Assembly (NCBI RefSeq): GCF_014397245.1
Contig: NZ_JACLHY010000020.1
Coordinates: 1-64,000 of the forward strand
Length of the DNA stretch: 64,000 nt
Origin: Arenibacter arenosicollis
GTDB lineage: Bacteria; Bacteroidota; Bacteroidia; Flavobacteriales; Flavobacteriaceae
Direction: 5' to 3'
The translations under genes and the position numbers were made by a program. Shown piece after piece: positions 44,515-52,647 of the stretch (the first letter of the stretch is position 1; every line of letters begins with the position of its first letter). The notes beneath the pieces are model-generated. The model was not told where the DNA came from. It made no database searches and saw nothing but the letters and a program-made list of their open reading frames with translations.

Positions 44515-45156
44515 TTTTATGATTTTTACATGTTTCTGATGTCAGAAATCAATTCATTTTAATATTGCCTTAAGACCATAAATAAATATCTGTTGTAGCT
44601 TGCAGCTATTCTAGATCATAGTCCCAATCTAACCTTTCCTTGATCTTGTTCCCTAATAGTACCCAAAATAGTTAATTTTAAATAAATGGAAACTTGTAAT
44701 GGGCATTTTTGGAAAAAGGTTCTGCAGTATTATTAGGAATAATGGGTCATATAATAAATACCGAATACATAATGGCATTAAACTTGGTCAAATTACTTAT
44801 AATCTAATTCTTGTCCCAGACCACATTTTGGTCTTTTGCAATATCATGGACTTTCCATACATAGCAACCAAATCCCCACTAATTTTTTGGGATGAATTCA
44901 CAATTTTTAAGTTTAGGATTCTGCCATTCTAAAAATGTACGTGTCATGAACCAATAAACCAGATACTAAAACAGTTCAGCGAATTTCTATTGAGTTGAGG
45001 CTAGGCAGCCCTTATTTTGGGACAAATAAATAAGTAGCTATTATTTCAGGGATTATTTTGGATTATTAAATGAAATCGGAGATTAATTTGGTAAAAACCG
45101 ATCTTAAATCCGGATGTTAATTGTTGATGACATATATTAAGGTATATTAGATTAAT
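44515..45156. other. Intergenic stretch without a supported gene
   Basis: About 640 AT-rich bases between the divergent histidine kinase and receiver genes. A 77-codon plus-strand frame (44699-44932) has no recognisable pattern. No repeat family or exact consensus promoter was found. Confidence 0.45.
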
Positions 45157-45549
45157 ATGAGAGAAGAAACCTTGTGGATAATTGATGATGATATGGTATC
45201 ACAATTTGCCATTAAGTATAAGATAGGGCAATCTTACCCCAACAATAGGGTTAGTACTTTTTATTCTGTTCAGGAGGCTTTGACCGCCCTAAAGGAATGT
45301 ATGGATGGTAAATTGGAGTTTCCGGAAAAGGTTTTATTGGACTTAGGCTTGCCAGTACTTACAGGGTGGCACTTTCTGCAGGAACTGGAAAAAATTCGAG
45401 GAAATATTGCCCCGTTCGAAATTTATATCGTTTCAGCATTTTCCAATTCAATGGACCGTAAGCGCGCTAAAGATCATTCTTTGGTCAAGGGCTATTTTGA
45501 AAAACCGTTGGATAACTTTGCCGTAGACCAAATATTTATGTCGCGGTAG
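45157..45549 (+). CDS. Single-domain response regulator receiver
   Basis: 130 residues. WIIDDDMVSQFAIKYKI gives the acidic pocket, KVLLDLGLPVLTGWHFLQEL holds the phospho-acceptor Asp62, and VKGYFEKPLDN the conserved Lys. The DLGLP form and the IYIVSAFSNSMD strand are typical of stand-alone Bacteroidota receivers that relay a signal or bind a partner. Probably paired with the soluble kinase to the left; no output domain. Confidence 0.87.
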   Translation: MREETLWIIDDDMVSQFAIKYKIGQSYPNNRVSTFYSVQEALTALKECMDGKLEFPEKVLLDLGLPVLTGWHFLQELEKIRGNIAPFEIYIVSAFSNSMDRKRAKDHSLVKGYFEKPLDNFAVDQIFMSR

Positions 45550-45599
45550 CACGATCATGGATTAGGTTATGCTGTTGAACATGGAGACAAAAGTGATTC

Positions 45600-46352
45600 C
45601 TAATCTTTCCAATTTTGAAGTCGATCAAGATATAGATAATCTTCAACAAACTTTCTATGCCCTGGACCGGACATTTTTTCCAAAAGATTTAGGGCAGATA
45701 TGTAGCTTGCCAAATTACCGTTGGAGGAGCTGAATTTTCCGTCCTCTACAAAGGTCACCGAACTGTCGTTCTGTACCTTTAGATTAGGGTAATCCTTCTG
45801 CAATTGTGTGCCCCCTCCGATCCAGGTAACAATTTTATGTCCATCTGCAATACCGGATTTGCCGATCAATTGTGCTCCAGCACAATTGCTTACGGTATAT
45901 AGCGTTTCCCTATTTTTTTCCTTTATAAAACTTACAATTTTTTCATTATGAACTTGAGCGTACATGTCATAGGCACTTGGAACAAACAAGGCCGTAAGTT
46001 GTGGGCAGTTTTCAAAGGTGTAATCTGGTAAAAACCGTATTCCTTCCTCTGATGTTATTGGGTCGGCATTTTCAGCAATGGTTATTACATTATACAGCTG
46101 ATTTCCTTCTATACTTGGTTTGGCAAAAACATCAGAAGTGGCAATGACTTCACTCTGCAGGACGCCATTGAACATCAGCAGTCCTATAGTTGGCAACTCC
46201 TTTTTGAAGGGCTTTAAGTGTTTCGTCAAAGTGTCCGTGGTAATGCTCAGGTCTGGTAAATGTCCAGTTTTGGCACTATTTTTTGATTGGTCCATTTTGC
46301 AACTTCCGAAAAAAACCAACAATGCAACTAATATTAGATTATACTTTTCCAT
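45600..46352 (-). CDS. DJ-1/PfpI-family lipoprotein
   Basis: 250 residues. MEKYNLILVALLVFFGSCKM is a lipoprotein signal. The DJ-1/PfpI fold shows TIGLLMFNGVLQSEVIATSD, QLTALFVPSAYDMYAQVHNE and LYTVSNCAGAQLIGKSGIAD with a nucleophile-elbow-type Cys in SNCAGA. An exported, lipid-anchored member is unusual for this cytosolic family. Function unknown. Transcribed from the region near the NDH-2 start. Confidence 0.75.
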   Translation of the reverse strand: MEKYNLILVALLVFFGSCKMDQSKNSAKTGHLPDLSITTDTLTKHLKPFKKELPTIGLLMFNGVLQSEVIATSDVFAKPSIEGNQLYNVITIAENADPITSEEGIRFLPDYTFENCPQLTALFVPSAYDMYAQVHNEKIVSFIKEKNRETLYTVSNCAGAQLIGKSGIADGHKIVTWIGGGTQLQKDYPNLKVQNDSSVTFVEDGKFSSSNGNLASYISALNLLEKMSGPGHRKFVEDYLYLDRLQNWKD

Positions 46353-46366
46353 AAGTCCTTAAGGTA

Positions 46367-47629
46367 TTATTTTTTATCGTTTGGTTTGATGATCATTCTA
46401 AAATACTGATCCTTATACAGGTAGTACCCGATCCAGTTAATGAATGTGCGAAACCTATTTTTAAAATTAACCAACCCCATAATATGCACGAAGATCCAAA
46501 TTAACCAGGCTATAAATCCTTTTATAAAAAACCTTTCCTTTGGCAAGTCAAAAACTGCCTTATTTCTTCCAATAATTGCCAATGACCCTTTGTCCCTGTA
46601 CTTGAAAGGAGTCCATGGGCTTTTGTCCCTGTCTAAATTAAAGGCCAAATTCTTGGCCTGTTGAATTGCGGGTTGGGCCAATTGGGGATGGCCTTCAGGA
46701 TAGCCAATATCTCCTTGGACCAACGCACAATCGCCCAATGCATAAATATTATCGTAGCCGTTGACCAAATTGGAAGAGTTGGTTTTTAACCTTTTTCCCT
46801 TTCCAAAACTGTCCATGGAGAAACCATTGAAAGCCTTGGCAGTTACCCCGGCCGCCCAGATTAGATTTTTGGATTCTATTGTAGTACCATCGGACAGTAA
46901 AACAATATCTTCCTTAAAATCATTTACCAAACAGTTCAGCCTTATTTCTACACCCAATTCATTTAGCTTGGAGTAGGTATAGCTTTGGGAGTTTTTTGAC
47001 ATGGTATTCAAAACTGCACTTTGACCATCTATTAAATATATTTTTCCTAAATCACTTTCACTCAATTCTGGATAATCTTTCTTCAAAATAGAGGTCTTCA
47101 TCTCTGCTAAAATGCCTGAAAGTTCAACTCCTGTAGGTCCGGCTCCAGCGATAACAAATGTCAATAATTTTTTTCGTTCTTCTTTGTCATCGTGTCTTGT
47201 TGCCCTGTCCAGCCTAGTAAGAATGGTGTTTCTAAGAGTTAACGCATCACTTATGGTTTTCATCGGTAAACTATACTTTTCAATGTTCTTATTACCGAAG
47301 TAATTACTTTCAGTACCTGTGGCCATAACCAATATATCATAGTGCAACTCACCATTGCTCAGCATTACTTTGTTTTCATTGGGAACCACTTCCAATAAAC
47401 TTCCAAGCCTAAAGCGAACATTCTTAAAGTTCCTCAATATTTTTCTAAAGGGGTAACTAATCGCCGATGGTTCCATAAACCCGGTAGAGACCTGATAGAT
47501 CAAAGGCGGAAAGAAATTATAATTATTGGCATCTACCAATATGGTTTGGTACTTTGGTGAATTTCCGATCCTTTTTATCAATTCCAAGCCAGCAAAACCT
47601 CCCCCTACTACTATTATCGACTTTTTCAT
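46367..47629 (-). CDS. Type 2 NADH dehydrogenase-like FAD oxidoreductase
   Basis: About 420 residues from ATG 47629; a start at 47650 is less typical. SIIVVGGGFAGLELIKRIG is the FAD Rossmann motif, NNYNFFPPLIYQVSTGFMEP is characteristic of NDH-2, TFVIAGAGPTGVELSGILAE the NAD(H) motif and NIYALGDCALVQGD the FAD-closing motif. The C-terminus FIKGFIAWLIWIFVHIMGLV NFKNRFRTFI is an amphipathic membrane anchor. Transfers electrons from NADH to quinone at the inner face. Probably one unit with the DJ-1 lipoprotein gene (14-base gap). Confidence 0.87.
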   Translation of the reverse strand: MKKSIIVVGGGFAGLELIKRIGNSPKYQTILVDANNYNFFPPLIYQVSTGFMEPSAISYPFRKILRNFKNVRFRLGSLLEVVPNENKVMLSNGELHYDILVMATGTESNYFGNKNIEKYSLPMKTISDALTLRNTILTRLDRATRHDDKEERKKLLTFVIAGAGPTGVELSGILAEMKTSILKKDYPELSESDLGKIYLIDGQSAVLNTMSKNSQSYTYSKLNELGVEIRLNCLVNDFKEDIVLLSDGTTIESKNLIWAAGVTAKAFNGFSMDSFGKGKRLKTNSSNLVNGYDNIYALGDCALVQGDIGYPEGHPQLAQPAIQQAKNLAFNLDRDKSPWTPFKYRDKGSLAIIGRNKAVFDLPKERFFIKGFIAWLIWIFVHIMGLVNFKNRFRTFINWIGYYLYKDQYFRMIIKPNDKK

Positions 47630-47687
47630 AGTATTCCATTTAAGGTACAAAGGTCCTGGATTCAGCCATAAATAATCTTGAACTGGT

Positions 47688-48260
47688 TCAAGAAATGTCT
47701 TTTTTATTTAATTTACTTACGTATTCCGGCGATAAGCCTAAAAAGCTTGCCACTAGATATTGAGGTACATTGTTTACAAAATCAGGAAAGGCCTCTTTAA
47801 ACCTAAAATAGATTTCTTCCTTTGAATAAATAAAAAGATACTTTATCCGATTAAGTGAGGCACCATAAGCTGTTTGATATATCTTTCTGAAATAAGTTTC
47901 CATATTAGGAAACCGTCTAAGTAATTCTCTTTCGTTATTATGTGTTAAGTGAAGTATGGTCGAAGCTTTAACTCCTTGGATATAACACTCTGAACGCATA
48001 TTGTTGTGATAGGCCAAATAATCCGTAATCCACCAATTCTCTATGGCAAATTGTAAAGTATGCTCGGTACCCTTTTCATCAATAATATACAATTGAAGAC
48101 ACCCGCTTAAAACAAAATAGTGGTCCAGAGATTTGTTTCCTGGTTCGTAAAGTAGTTCTTTTTTTTTGACAGTTTTCAAATCAAAGTACTTCGCAATCTC
48201 CTGAAACTCATTATTGTCAACTGAAGTGTATTTGTTAATATGTTCGAACAGTTTTTGCAT
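47688..48260 (-). CDS. Crp/Fnr-family transcriptional regulator
   Basis: About 190 residues from ATG 48260; the frame to 48293 has no support. ELLYEPGNKSLDHYFVLSGC LQLYIIDEKGTEHTLQFAIE is the cNMP-binding fold. The C-terminal HTH is short: YLVASFLGLSPEYVSKLNKK. No cysteines typical of Fnr. It precedes the NDH-2-like gene on the same strand with a 58-base gap and is a candidate regulator of it. Confidence 0.83.
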   Translation of the reverse strand: MQKLFEHINKYTSVDNNEFQEIAKYFDLKTVKKKELLYEPGNKSLDHYFVLSGCLQLYIIDEKGTEHTLQFAIENWWITDYLAYHNNMRSECYIQGVKASTILHLTHNNERELLRRFPNMETYFRKIYQTAYGASLNRIKYLFIYSKEEIYFRFKEAFPDFVNNVPQYLVASFLGLSPEYVSKLNKKDIS

Positions 48261-48500
48261 TTTAATAGGTTCATCTAATATCAAATTTAGCACAATTCAT
48301 CGATTACCCCAGACCATTCAATTTTTTAGTTTTTTCAATGATTTAATTAAATCAAGTATCTGAATAGACAGCCACCGGATAATTAACTACCCATAAGTAT
48401 CATTTCACAACATATTATAAAGGGTTGTCATCATTTATTGTGCTCAGGTATGTCATTTGGGTACCTTGAACTTTTTATTAATCAATCTATCCCTCCGATT

Positions 48501-49193
48501 ATGAAATTGAGATGTATAATAGTGGACGATTCGTTTATGCAGCGAACTACCATGGCCAGATTAGTGGACAATCATCCGAACTTGGCAATGGTGGCTGAAT
48601 ACAGTAATGCCATTGAGGCAAAAAACGGTCTAAAAAATAATGAAATCGACCTTATTTTCCTGGATGTGGAAATGCCCATCATCAATGGTTTTGATCTTTT
48701 GGAATCTTTGGACAACCCACCACAGGTAATTTTGATTACCGGTAATCCGGATTATGCACTCAAGGCTTTCGATTATAACGTAACCGATTATCTTTATAAG
48801 CCCATTTCCCTAGCTCGATTTGATGCCTCTGTAAAAAGGGCCGTGGCCAAATATGAGCAGATTAATAAATTGGATGAAGAAGAAGAGTATATCTTCGTTA
48901 AAAGTAACCTTAGACAGCGCAAAGTTGTTCTGAACGACATTAATTGGGTCGAAGCTCTCGGCGATTACATTAAATTGGTAACGATTGAAGGCAATGTCGT
49001 TATCCTTTCCACAATGAAATCTTTTGAACAAAAATTACCGAAGGATAAATTCCTAAGGATACATAAATCCTATATCGTTAATCTGGAAAAAGTTGAAAAG
49101 TACAATAGTAAAACAGTAGAAGTAGCTGGTAAACAGGTACCTCTTAGTAGACATAAAAAGACAGAACTCGCCGAGGCCCTTTACAACGTCTAA
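48501..49193 (+). CDS. LytTR-type response regulator
   Basis: About 230 residues from ATG 48501, which opens directly on the receiver; a start at 48438 is unsupported. Receiver: MKLRCIIVDDSFMQRTTMAR, LIFLDVEMPIING with Asp55, NVTDYLYKPI with Lys. Output: LytTR, with EEYIFVKSNLRQRKVVLNDI, WVEALGDYIKLVTIEGNVVI, TMKSFEQKLPKDKFLRIHKS YIVNLEKVEKY. Binds DNA as a dimer. No LytS-type kinase is adjacent. Confidence 0.92.
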   Translation: MKLRCIIVDDSFMQRTTMARLVDNHPNLAMVAEYSNAIEAKNGLKNNEIDLIFLDVEMPIINGFDLLESLDNPPQVILITGNPDYALKAFDYNVTDYLYKPISLARFDASVKRAVAKYEQINKLDEEEEYIFVKSNLRQRKVVLNDINWVEALGDYIKLVTIEGNVVILSTMKSFEQKLPKDKFLRIHKSYIVNLEKVEKYNSKTVEVAGKQVPLSRHKKTELAEALYNV

Positions 49194-49246
49194 ATTATAG
49201 GGGCCTATAATTTGGATTTGAATATCGGGGTATTACCCCCGATATT
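49193..49246. terminator. Convergent-junction hairpins, probably bidirectional terminator
   Basis: AATATCGGGG (49221-49230) and CCCCGATATT (49237-49246) form a perfect 10-base stem with a 6-base loop followed by TTAG. A second palindrome, AAATTATAGG-ggCCTATAATTT, starts at the LytTR stop codon (49193-49213). The position between a plus-strand gene ending at 49193 and a minus-strand gene ending at 49326 fits termination from both sides. Confidence 0.6.
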
Positions 49247-49325
49247 TTAGTATGTAACTTTAAGCTGATTTCAATTCTACGGCAATAAGTTATTTGCAAT
49301 AGGGCTTTCCAAGAATAACTGCGAT

Positions 49326-49610
49326 CTAATTTTCTATTTGTTCAGGCTCGGTTAGACGAAAGTTTTCAAACTTCTGACCTTTAAGATGTTTGTGCCATTT
49401 TTCAATTAATGGCCGTTCAAGTTTAAACTCACGGAATTCGTCAGGACTCATAATTGGTATTCCTTTTACGATTGGATAAAACCTTTTGCAGGATGAGCAT
49501 ACAAAAAAGCCTTCCAAAATATTATCATCTACATCTTTTGTGATTTCTGTTAGGCTAAGGTCCCCTTTGTCAAACGGACAACAAAGTTTATCGATTGTTT
49601 CTTTTTTCAT
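49326..49610 (-). CDS. Trm112-like zinc-binding protein
   Basis: 94 residues. KLCCPFDKGDLSLTEITKDV, FFVCSSCKRFYPIVKGIPIM is the Trm112/YcaR pattern: a first zinc pair, here CCPFD, a CxxC second pair, and the YPIxxGIPIM closing strand. Members are often activating partners of SAM methyltransferases. The start overlaps the stop of the ThiE-like gene (ATGA), and a class I methyltransferase opens the same operon, so it may be that enzyme's partner. Last gene behind the TPP riboswitch. Confidence 0.8.
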   Translation of the reverse strand: MKKETIDKLCCPFDKGDLSLTEITKDVDDNILEGFFVCSSCKRFYPIVKGIPIMSPDEFREFKLERPLIEKWHKHLKGQKFENFRLTEPEQIEN

Positions 49611-50254
49611 ATGTTATTTAATTTGTGGGCATATTTTTTAATGGATTCGTTGGGGACATCGCTACTCATAATTCCTGACACTACTGCAATTCCCGTATAT
49701 TTTAACGCGTCTAGTCGATGGAGGTTTTCAGGTTTGATTCCACCAGCTAAATAAATAGGTAAATCGTAATTTTTTGACGCATGATGAATGGTTCCAAAAT
49801 TTACAATTTCACAACTGTTGGCCGTTTGTGACGGGAAAATGGAACAGAATGAAATATAATCCAGCTTGTTCCTACTTGCCCATTCTACATGTGTTAAATC
49901 GTTGTTGCATGTAAGTCCACTAATAAAAGGATGGAGTACGCTTCCTACTATAGATGTGTAATCCGTTGGAATATCGTCAAAATGTACACCATCCAATAAC
50001 GAATTATTGAGCAGTTCCCATCTGTTGTTTATCAATACCGGAATATTTTTAGCATGGCATTTTTCACAAATCCTGTTGATCAGTTCAATTATGTTTTGGT
50101 TGACTTTAAAATTGTCCCAAATTTGAACTGCGGCTAATTTTTCACTTAAACATAAATTTAATTTATTCATGAGAATTGATTCATCCATTGCCGGGTCGAC
50201 AATTAAATAGATTCCAGAACCCATGTTTCTTTTCGCTTTCCCCCTTATTTCCAT
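49607..50254 (-). CDS. ThiE-like TIM-barrel protein (thiamine phosphate synthase superfamily)
   Basis: 215 residues (ATG 50254; ATG 50224 also possible, opening with GSGIYLIVDP). The barrel follows ThiE: AAVQIWDNF where ThiE has VQLR-K, PVLINNRWELLNNSLLDGVH where ThiE has INDRxxLA..ADGVH, SFCSIFPSQTANSCEIVNFG where ThiE has GPxFPTxTK, and PIYLAGGIKPENL. The Arg/Lys of the pyrimidine-pyrophosphate site are not conserved, so a changed substrate or a partly inactive enzyme is possible. It lies between an AIR-synthase-like gene and Trm112, under a TPP riboswitch. Confidence 0.75.
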   Translation of the reverse strand: MEIRGKAKRNMGSGIYLIVDPAMDESILMNKLNLCLSEKLAAVQIWDNFKVNQNIIELINRICEKCHAKNIPVLINNRWELLNNSLLDGVHFDDIPTDYTSIVGSVLHPFISGLTCNNDLTHVEWASRNKLDYISFCSIFPSQTANSCEIVNFGTIHHASKNYDLPIYLAGGIKPENLHRLDALKYTGIAVVSGIMSSDVPNESIKKYAHKLNNI

Positions 50255-51300
50255 CCTGAATTGAGTGCTTTGAAAAAGGCCGCCCAGTAAGGGTCGTTCT
50301 CATTGTACAATAGATCATTGGCTACATCATTGGCTACGAGTTTAATACCCTGCTTCCTATGGGTTATTTTTCCCACTTCTGAGCAGAAAATATTTTCCCT
50401 GGCCAAACGATTGATAACTTTTTTTGCACTACCCTCCTTACAGGTGATGATCATTGAACCTGCTCCAATACAGTAACGCGGATCCAACGAAAACAATTTA
50501 CAAACTTCACTTTGTAGAATGCCTATAGGCAGTTTGTCGTTATAAACGATTGCACCATTGTTCGAGGCGGTTGCCAATTCATATATTGCACCCAAGACAC
50601 CTCCTTCCGTAACATCGTGCATGGCGGTTACATCATTATGTTCACGGTTTTGACCTACTGCTGCCAGGGCGTCCTCAAGGGAAGAAGTTTGATAAAAAGT
50701 AGCGCATGCCTGTTGTTGTATTTCGGAACCAAGTTTATTAGTAACCGTTTCAGGGAAACACATAGCAAGTATGGCCGTCGAAGAAATAGCACATGATTTG
50801 GTAACTAATATCACATCGCCGGGTTTCGCATATTTAGAAACCAATATTTTAGTTTTCGGAGCAATACTGACAAATGTCCCACCGCCTGCGATGGTAGAAT
50901 TTTGGCCTTCAATAAAACCTGTATGCCCCCCGGTAATGGCAATGCCTATTTTTGAGCAAAAGCTGTGGATATAACCCCAATATATTTGAAAATCGGATTT
51001 CGAAAAAGTACTCGGAAGATTTAGAACAAACTGCCCATACATAGGTGCATATCCCGTGGTTGCCATGTCATTTGCCATTAATTGCACGGATAGCCAAGCG
51101 GACTCTTCCAAACCGAGACTTGGAAGTAAGGTCAGAGGGTCACTGGTCATGGCCATCGCCATAGTTCCGGGTAAATCTACTATGGATACATCAACACCGA
51201 AATTAGGACCTACACTTACTTCCTCTCTATTAAAACCACATTTATTACTGATAAACTGCTCAAATACATGTGGGTCTATTTTCCCTAGTTTATCACCCAT
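50245..51300 (-). CDS. AIR-synthase-like protein (HypE/ThiL superfamily)
   Basis: About 351 residues from ATG 51300; a frame to 51402 lies inside the upstream gene. ATPase-type acidic sites: NFGVDVSIVD, AMTSDPLTLL, VQLMANDMATTGYAPMYGQF and ITGGHTGFIEGQN. The C-terminal AIRS_C shows AMHDVTEGGVLGAIYELATA and GAGSMIITCKEGS. Members bind ATP and phosphorylate or activate small substrates (AIR, thiamine phosphate, HypF thiocarbamate, selenide); this one is not clearly any of them. Start overlaps the methyltransferase stop (TAATG). Confidence 0.8.
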   Translation of the reverse strand: MGDKLGKIDPHVFEQFISNKCGFNREEVSVGPNFGVDVSIVDLPGTMAMAMTSDPLTLLPSLGLEESAWLSVQLMANDMATTGYAPMYGQFVLNLPSTFSKSDFQIYWGYIHSFCSKIGIAITGGHTGFIEGQNSTIAGGGTFVSIAPKTKILVSKYAKPGDVILVTKSCAISSTAILAMCFPETVTNKLGSEIQQQACATFYQTSSLEDALAAVGQNREHNDVTAMHDVTEGGVLGAIYELATASNNGAIVYNDKLPIGILQSEVCKLFSLDPRYCIGAGSMIITCKEGSAKKVINRLARENIFCSEVGKITHRKQGIKLVANDVANDLLYNENDPYWAAFFKALNSGWK

Positions 51301-52022
51301 TATTTTACGTCGTTTAATTTGATATACAAGCCAAAAAAGTCCCCAAAGGGTAGACTCCATTGTTGGATCGGAAACCATTTTGGTAGGCCTGTACACGTCC
51401 ATTCAATGGAATAATCGCGTCCTTGAAGTGCCTCTTCGATAATTTTAGAGAGTTTTTCAGGTGTATAAAAGGTCGCTGTTAGATAGAAAGGATTCATCCC
51501 AAATACTTCTTGTATTCTTCTTCTAACTACCTTGGTCGAATTTCTGTTCATCATTCCCATAGCTATTCCATATTTTCCAACGCGTGCGGCTTCGCGAATT
51601 ACTTGAACTGGGTTCTTGTAATATTCAAATGTGGTAATGAATGCAAGCGAATCAAAAGTATGGTCCTTAAATGGCATATAGTGTGAGTCGGCCATAACAA
51701 GATCACCATCAAATAGTTCTACGGCTTGGGATAGCATAAGTGGTGATATGTCACCACCAGTAGCTTCAATGCCAATCTCCTTCCACCAGCGTGTAAAACG
51801 GGTTGTACCACAGCCAAACTCCAATAGGGTTTTAACACGTTTGTCTTTTGAAACCAATTGCTCCATTACCTTTTTTTGCCATATTTCAGCGCGCTTGTAC
51901 CTACCTTCATACCATTGTTCGTAGGTGTCTGTATGTTCTCTATTAAAAAACCATTCTGGCCTGTTCTGCCAGTTTTGATCTTCCTTGGGAATAAGTTCTG
52001 AAGTTGCTTTTTCTATTTTCAT
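51300..52022 (-). CDS. Class I SAM-dependent methyltransferase, first gene of TPP-riboswitch operon
   Basis: 240 residues. WQNRPEWFFNREHTDTYEQW, VKTLLEFGCGTTRFTRWWKE (motif I), ATGGDISPLMLSQAVELFD, and FDSLAFITTFEYYKNPVQVI REAARVGKYGIAMGM follow the Methyltransf_11 order. Substrate unknown. It lies directly behind a TPP riboswitch and its terminator. The operon (methyltransferase, AIR-synthase-like, ThiE-like, Trm112-like) has overlapping or touching genes, so all four should respond to thiamine pyrophosphate. Confidence 0.8.
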   Translation of the reverse strand: MKIEKATSELIPKEDQNWQNRPEWFFNREHTDTYEQWYEGRYKRAEIWQKKVMEQLVSKDKRVKTLLEFGCGTTRFTRWWKEIGIEATGGDISPLMLSQAVELFDGDLVMADSHYMPFKDHTFDSLAFITTFEYYKNPVQVIREAARVGKYGIAMGMMNRNSTKVVRRRIQEVFGMNPFYLTATFYTPEKLSKIIEEALQGRDYSIEWTCTGLPKWFPIQQWSLPFGDFFGLYIKLNDVK

Positions 52023-52035
52023 TTTATATTATTTA

Positions 52036-52075
52036 AAACAAAAACTCCATTCTTTGGGGTAACCAATGAATGGAG
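52036..52075 (-). terminator. Riboswitch-linked intrinsic terminator
   Basis: On the minus strand CTCCATTC (52068-52075) and GAATGGAG (52045-52052) form an 8-base stem followed by TTTTTGTTTT, a T-rich tail. It lies between the TPP aptamer and the methyltransferase start and is the likely expression platform: transcription stops when ligand is bound. Confidence 0.75.
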
Positions 52076-52098
52076 CCTAAAATGAAATATCTTAGCTT

Positions 52099-52173
52099 GC
52101 ATCCCTACGTTGGCATTATCCAAATCAGGTCTCGGGTATTATCTCAGCTTGGCTTTTACCAGGCACCCCGTGC
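52099..52173 (-). promoter_or_regulatory. TPP riboswitch (THI element) aptamer
   Basis: The minus strand reads GCACGGGGTGCC, then a short hairpin, AAGCTGAGATAATACCCGA, ACCTGATTTGGATAATGCCA and ACGTAGGGATGC. These are the canonical TPP aptamer landmarks in order: GGGGTGCC, CTGAGA, ACCC, ACCTGAT, GGATAATGCCA and GTAGGGA, with closing GCA/TGC pairs. Thiamine pyrophosphate binding should promote the downstream terminator and turn the four-gene operon off. No canonical thiC, thiH, thiD or thiM gene is next to it. Confidence 0.95.
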
Positions 52174-52647
52174 TTTTGTGTTGATAAATGTACGATTAAA
52201 ATTTAAAATTCTAAGCTATACTAAATGTTTCAAGAAGGTAAATTGTGTTACTCAAGTTTCTATTGAGAGTATCCATAATAATTGTACTTGGAAGGCACGG
52301 TCTTTGGGAAACGCCACTGTACATATTTTTGGTTGCAAGGGAAAACGGTATTGGTTCAAGATGGGCTGGCTTGAAGAATTGAATACCACATGTTTAATAG
52401 GTTTCGGAATGCATTACTGTTACATAGGCATTTAATGCAATAAAAAAGTTATTCTATCTTCCATAACACTTTTTATACTGTTAATTTAACGTATAGAATA
52501 AGAACCTCAATAAGAAGTCAGTATTGGCGAGTTGTACGAATAACTAATAATCCATCGACATTAAAGCTATTACTATGGGAGAAGATTATAGGTACCATGA
52601 AATTCATCCTTAGTGTTTTTTAGAGTTGGTTTCATATAAGCAATGCT
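52174..52647. other. Intergenic stretch upstream of the riboswitch
   Basis: About 470 bases between the aptamer and the end of cysI. It should hold the promoter of the riboswitch operon. A plus-strand frame (52070-52435) runs through the aptamer and is a shadow. No other feature was found. Confidence 0.5.

Follow-up and report, generated by a model that had tools for sequence, protein, structure and literature searches.

A TPP-riboswitch-controlled four-gene cassette of Bacteroidota, likely an unrecognised step of vitamin B1 salvage or repair

We analysed a 64,000-nucleotide stretch of the genome of Arenibacter arenosicollis (positions 1 to 64,000 of contig NZ_JACLHY010000020.1, assembly GCF_014397245.1; hereafter the window), in which a thiamine pyrophosphate (TPP) riboswitch precedes four overlapping genes coding for a methyltransferase, a HypE-like ATPase, a ThiE-like barrel and a Trm112-like protein (Table 1). 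The results point to a real, conserved, mobile and TPP-controlled gene set that is likely an unrecognised step in the salvage or repair of vitamin B1 (thiamine). With middling confidence, we read the four genes as a portable module for thiamine salvage or repair that is repressed by TPP. The initial annotation of the window had described an operon under TPP control that lacks a standard thiamine gene set; in agreement with this, no NCBIfam equivalog cut-off was reached by any of the operon proteins. Successive genes overlap by 1, 10 and 4 bases, when the start of the ATPase gene is taken as the one common to its relatives (the mechanical open reading frame (ORF) begins at 51402).

Table 1. The riboswitch and the genes of the operon, in order of transcription (bit scores with the cut-off of the respective model)
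Feature	Position in window	Strand	Evidence
TPP riboswitch aptamer (RF00059)	52085-52180	minus	Rfam 61.4 bits, gathering cut-off 54.3, E 1.3e-9
Intrinsic terminator (hairpin and T tract), between aptamer and methyltransferase gene	~52033-52077	minus	Sequence and folding
Class I S-adenosylmethionine (SAM)-dependent methyltransferase, 240 aa, first gene	51300-52022	minus	Pfam Methyltransf_11 (PF08241) 58 bits, cut-off 21.2
AIR-synthase-superfamily ATPase, 351 aa, HypE-like	50245-51300	minus	AIRS 33.1 bits, cut-off 24; AIRS_C 72.3 bits, cut-off 23.1
ThiE/TenI-fold barrel, 215 aa	49607-50254	minus	Pfam TMP-TENI (PF02581) 89.8 bits, cut-off 27
Trm112-like small protein, 94 aa	49326-49610	minus	Pfam Trm112p (PF03966) 36.2 bits, cut-off 22

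The aptamer is the sole Rfam match over the gathering cut-off within the window. The terminator downstream of it consists of a hairpin with the arms CTCCATTC...GAATGGAG and the T tract TTTTTGTTTT; folded alone, the hairpin has an energy of -18.3 kcal/mol, and it is absent from the output of a generic consensus terminator scan. An aptamer and a terminator ahead of four overlapping genes had been proposed from the letters of the DNA, and the Rfam score and the stability of the hairpin bear this out. When the region was folded without the 3' arm of the terminator, GGGGT of the aptamer paired with ACCCC of the terminator loop. This pairing is a possible antiterminator, which makes a TPP-off switch by termination plausible. 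The position of the aptamer and the terminator is the one expected for switching off the four-gene transcript at high TPP. A hairpin followed by a T run was found by a crude rule downstream of the aptamer in 50 of the 80 named loci described below; the remaining 30 may use translational control, or a form of terminator that the rule missed.

The genes and the aptamer recur together across the phylum. A search of 296 Bacteroidota genomes with the ATPase found close relatives (47-68% identity) in ten other genomes and a second copy of the cassette in the window's own genome. In this first sample of 12 loci, the window included, all four genes were present 12 times out of 12 and a TPP aptamer lay upstream each time, 11 of them over the gathering cut-off and one (L015) falling short of it at 47.8 bits. 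We then scanned named genomes with an alignment of the ATPase and kept the best 80 of 177 relatives, all 80 of which lie in Bacteroidota. In 78 of these loci the set of four genes is complete and in order, the other two stopping at contig ends, and a covariance model (R1) placed the aptamer upstream in 80/80. Because 12 of the 17 aptamers on which R1 was trained came from these operons, 16 of the 80 loci were checked separately, and Rfam's own TPP model confirmed the aptamer in all 16, low scorers included. The scan thus supplies the survey of gene neighbourhoods that the initial annotation had suggested, with the aptamer ahead of the gene set at every named locus. Together the two samples comprise 91 distinct loci (12 + 80, one genome being counted twice), all with the aptamer just upstream and all, except the window, retrieved by protein and not by RNA. 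We set aside a chance or decayed aptamer in view of its constancy among the named loci and of the Rfam confirmations.

No flanking gene family occurs in more than 9 of the 80 named loci, which speaks against a larger operon. The ATPase tree is at odds with taxonomy, families being intermixed: Riemerella groups with Aquirufa, Cognataquiflexum, Ferruginibacter and Pedobacter (support 100/96), and Persicitalea joins one Arenibacter group (97/86) with two other Arenibacter species placed elsewhere. Since conserved neighbours are missing and the tree disagrees with taxonomy, the cassette probably moves horizontally together with its switch.

The second copy in A. arenosicollis belongs to a duplication of about 7.2 kb with 82% nucleotide identity (window 45153-52287 and L028 9673-16816), which includes the operon as well as genes for a LytTR regulator, a cyclic-nucleotide-type regulator, an NADH-dehydrogenase-like protein and a DJ-1/PfpI protein. 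Arenibacter sp. F26102 likewise has two operon copies (L112, L113). Other RNA elements were seen near three operons: a further TPP-like match that is weak (35 bits) and lies downstream of the operon, on the strand opposite to it (L150 10102-10189, minus strand), a SAM riboswitch (L146 13855-13956), and a cobalamin riboswitch that is divergent from the TPP aptamer (L121 6792-6991).

The ATPase is closest to HypE, though it scores below the equivalog cut-offs of HypE, ThiL and SelD. Its NCBIfam scores were 67.6 for hypE (TIGR02124, cut-off 251.6), 64.9 for thiL (TIGR01379, cut-off 184.15) and 46.9 for selD (TIGR00476, cut-off 125). Its predicted structure, with a predicted local distance difference test (pLDDT) score of 93.2, has HypE as the closest solved fold (Z 34.5, root-mean-square deviation (rmsd) 2.6, 322 aligned), followed by ThiL and SelD (both Z 28.5) and PurM (Z 23.6). 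HypE needs a C-terminal Cys, however, and this residue is found in 0/12 aligned ATPase sequences; moreover, no hydrogenase genes adjoin the operon. HypE or SelD proper was rejected because the equivalog cut-offs were not reached. ThiL, a member of the same superfamily, has the motif GGDT where the ATPase carries GGHT, and a true ThiL is encoded elsewhere in the genome (308.2 bits). The description of the ATPase as HypE-like and not ThiL, with GGHT and DVTEGG motifs, had been made from the window alone. It holds across the family: a separate ThiL scored over the cut-off in each of the eleven carrier genomes of the phylum sample, and GGHT and HDVTEGG are invariant. The residues D37, SDP53-55, ND77-78, H126, T127, HDVTEGG228-234 and DPYW336-339 are identical in 66/66 copies (the window plus 65 of the 80 loci; as in the 67-copy alignment used below, which is the window plus 66 of 78, near-duplicates were removed by hand).

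A plasmid search with the ATPase returned 73 records, all below 60% identity. On Haloarcula plasmids (L231, L234, L237), a distant ATPase relative lies head-to-head with genes for an MTH1187-type thiamine-binding protein and a thiamine ABC transporter substrate-binding protein; in the Halobacterium, Haloferax and Acaryochloris neighbourhoods thiamine-binding genes are not beside the relative, and one more record is unannotated there. With seven plasmid neighbourhoods read, one of them at a match to the methyltransferase, the Haloarcula pattern is weak and we do not use it as support.

The barrel reached neither the thiE cut-off (TIGR00693, 84.7 for 145.1) nor that of TenI (NF005819, 47.9 for 251). 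Its predicted structure (pLDDT 92.8) is closest to ThiE (Z 23.9, rmsd 2.5, 209 aligned), with TenI at Z 20.9. We put its residues on ThiE numbering through an alignment and counted them over the 67 copies; the roles of the aligned ThiE residues in the pyrimidine, thiazole-phosphate and diphosphate/Mg sites are those of the structural literature. The columns of Q57 and H107 are kept in 67/67, S130 is Thr and T156 is Ser in 67/67, and the GG and SG phosphate loops are kept in 67/67. By contrast, R59, K61, D112 and K159 of the diphosphate/Mg site are kept in 0/67, and the D93 column is Asp in a single copy; the R59 column is Trp in 66/67. Two cysteines, Cys137 and Cys148, are invariant. The barrel is therefore predicted to retain the pyrimidine and thiazole-phosphate pockets of ThiE together with its fold, with the diphosphate/Mg site gone, which extends to the family the earlier remark that the ThiE-like protein lacks the VQLRxK site. 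Because of the lost diphosphate/Mg residues and the two invariant cysteines, it should not be an ordinary thiamine monophosphate (TMP) synthase. TenI has the same barrel and acts without a diphosphate donor. The barrel of the cassette scored far below the TenI cut-off, as given above, and differs in context, full-length ThiG, sought as a test for thiazole synthesis genes, being present in 0/11 carriers.

The thiamine genes of the carriers were then considered. ThiC was found in 0/11. Five of the eleven (G000, G277, G190, G151, G250) gave ThiG-family matches that passed the Pfam cut-off (24-30 bits) but were partial, and these were not counted. A full-length ThiD-type kinase occurs in one carrier of eleven, where again the kinase matches of six carriers, above the cut-off but partial, were left out of the count. 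TenA was found in 0 of 19 carrier genomes. Ten of the eleven have no other full-length ThiE-family protein (G250 and G203 gave weak partial matches that pass the cut-off); the window's genome (G000) has one on contig C66. This second gene (L045, G000:C66:194872-195390) is degenerate, with the R59 and K159 residues changed, and adjoins an oxidoreductase that, as read from its sequence, resembles old yellow enzyme. Thiamine pyrophosphokinase was found in 10/11 carriers, the window's genome having ThiL and PnuT and no PF04263 match. The other TPP aptamers of carrier genomes, at the loci that were read, precede TonB receptors or PnuT. At one of these (L039 7603-9365; L003), PnuT is followed by an overlapping gene for a 339-aa protein with a weak acyl-CoA dehydrogenase match (23.4 bits), at whose place Bacteroides has a thiamine kinase. 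Among the named carriers, 4 of 50 have a ThiC-family match, three being full ThiC genes with an adjoining ThiD. The fourth (L193, Chryseobacterium kimseyorum) is a 363-aa ThiC-like ORF with 34% identity over 243 residues and is, at this identity, too divergent for an ordinary ThiC. Judged from these genomes, carriers usually lack the known genes of B1 synthesis.

These data bear on two other explanations. One would be an ordinary, if diverged, pair of TMP synthase and TMP kinase (ThiE and ThiL) accompanied by two passenger genes. Folds and family names agree with it, but the carriers have their separate ThiL, the diphosphate and Mg residues of the barrel are lost, and the supposed passengers, methyltransferase and Trm112-like gene, are always present where the contig allows. 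In addition, a full-length ThiD-type kinase in only one of eleven carriers means that hydroxymethylpyrimidine diphosphate (HMP-PP) should be missing. We therefore set this explanation aside as very unlikely.

Alternatively, the cassette could be a route that makes thiamine, or one half of it, from ordinary metabolites, and so replaces ThiC, ThiD, ThiE and perhaps ThiG. This is consistent with a negative association between ThiC and the cassette: ThiC is present in 103 of the 296 sampled genomes, all 103 of them among the 285 non-carriers (0/11 vs 103/285, Fisher p 0.008, ancestry uncontrolled). With the named carriers added (11 + 50, minus one counted twice, G277 being L129), the ThiC-family count is 4/60 (Fisher p 9e-7, ancestry likewise uncontrolled), or 3/60 without the divergent ThiC-like ORF of G315. 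The sample is taxonomically uneven, 63 of the 103 ThiC genomes belonging to one family (f17). Genus g13 has four listed genomes with ThiC but without the cassette, and one, G277, with the cassette but without ThiC. Against such a route, four genes are few for the task, and the cassette has no sulfur-carrier or thiazole enzyme. According to the available part of one report, Riemerella anatipestifer ATCC 11845 does not grow without B1 (PMC8383284); the cassette was seen in strain CCUG25054, and since the B1 need and the cassette are known from different strains, Riemerella does not so far discriminate salvage from synthesis. On balance, we consider replacement of the synthetic pathway improbable.

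The methyltransferase is the most conserved member of the cassette: at 121 of its 240 positions, 98% or more of 81 copies have the same residue. Its profile matches include the Trm112-dependent 18S rRNA methyltransferase (E 2.6e-6). The Trm112-like protein has a CC...CxxC pattern in 79/79 copies and scored 65.1 bits against NCBIfam Trm112_arch, short of the cut-off of 77. It is a probable zinc-binding partner of the methyltransferase, the initial annotation having already named it a likely partner, and the pair is complete in every named locus that is not cut by a contig end. A methyltransferase with a small zinc protein recalls known Trm112 systems, from which the cassette differs in that its pair shares an operon under TPP control with a protein of the ThiE fold. 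A plasmid search with the methyltransferase gave distant matches only (11 records, all below 60% identity).

Well-known Trm112 partners methylate RNA or protein. It is thus conceivable that a macromolecule or a TPP-dependent enzyme is what the cassette modifies, or that the cassette helps to retain or trap thiamine, small-molecule salvage playing no part; the rRNA methyltransferase among the profile matches would fit. We hold this to be quite unlikely in view of the constant linkage to TPP control and to a ThiE-fold protein whose small-molecule pockets are conserved. A methyltransferase is also odd in thiamine metabolism, and would suit a pathway for an analogue or for detoxification; the bacimethrin cluster contains one. 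Under the control of TPP, the cassette might then make, modify or disarm an antivitamin similar to bacimethrin or oxythiamine, and its horizontal spread would suit a competition trait. This possibility also appears unlikely to us, since no exporter, resistance gene or other neighbour recurs at the 80 named loci and repression by TPP better matches supply than competition.

We return to salvage or repair. While the control arrangement and the gene anatomy are observed, each chemical step of the following scheme is one that we infer. The operon would be on when TPP is scarce and off when it is plentiful. Its substrate would be a thiamine-related vitamer that keeps the pyrimidine and, at some stage, carries a phosphate in the thiazole-phosphate pocket. 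The HypE-like ATPase would use ATP to activate a carbonyl oxygen, of an amide or a formamide, in line with its superfamily, and the methyltransferase with its Trm112-like partner would make or unmake a methylated intermediate. With the diphosphate site gone and ThiD mostly absent, the barrel cannot be expected to use HMP-PP; it may instead join or reshape the two halves of thiamine without it. This would yield TMP or thiamine, on which the carriers' separate ThiL or thiamine pyrophosphokinase would carry out the last step.

Several observations weigh against this proposal. The carriers also hold thiamine receptors and thiamine kinases, so that uptake alone could suffice. ThiC is missing in 182 of the 285 non-carriers too, and the full ThiC operon in 3 of the 50 named carriers, beside the divergent ThiC-like ORF in one more, means that the module is not strictly for organisms that make no B1. 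ThiL is kept in 3/3 tested non-carriers that have no ThiC or ThiE-family match (G118, G049, G146), and its presence in carriers consequently says little. Finally, the methyltransferase, for all its conservation, is without an explained role.

The wider claim, that TMP or thiamine is made here through chemistry of whatever kind that avoids both HMP-PP and ThiE, is in our estimate rather doubtful. A specific form of it, a third route of thiamine assembly in which the thiazole is rebuilt on the pyrimidine, is a long shot. Here, the formamide of the thiamine breakdown product formylaminomethylpyrimidine (FAMP, pyrimidine-CH2-NH-CHO) would be activated by the HypE/PurM-like ATPase, and sulfur would be added, perhaps via the invariant cysteines of the barrel. 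The barrel would then close the ring with a phosphorylated carbon unit bound in its phosphate pocket, and the resulting TMP would pass to the separate ThiL. A methylation with no assigned place in the scheme would come from the methyltransferase and its partner. The available part of one study reports vitamers including FAMP and hydroxyethylthiazole (HET) in seawater, FAMP having been measured in coastal seawater (PMC10881298).

The TPP operons published for Bacteroidetes, as given in the accessible portion of one study, are thiSEGCHF-tenI, OMthi (a TonB receptor) and pnuT-tnr3 (PMC5613172). They share the phylum and the TPP control with the cassette, but none of its four genes is described in that portion. 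We recognised no description of this gene set in the literature searched, a weak negative given that preprints were outside its scope and subscription papers were few. B1, an essential vitamin, is in short supply in many waters and soils, and organisms that lack ThiC or ThiG are labelled auxotrophs in genome surveys. As four small genes in a single operon with a built-in TPP switch, the cassette makes a directly testable case. If it indeed recovers B1, be it from damaged thiamine or from a vitamer, many Bacteroidota would have been misjudged, and maps of B1 cycling would miss one or more steps. Vitamin metabolism would also gain an ATPase of the HypE type and a methyltransferase pair of the Trm112 type.

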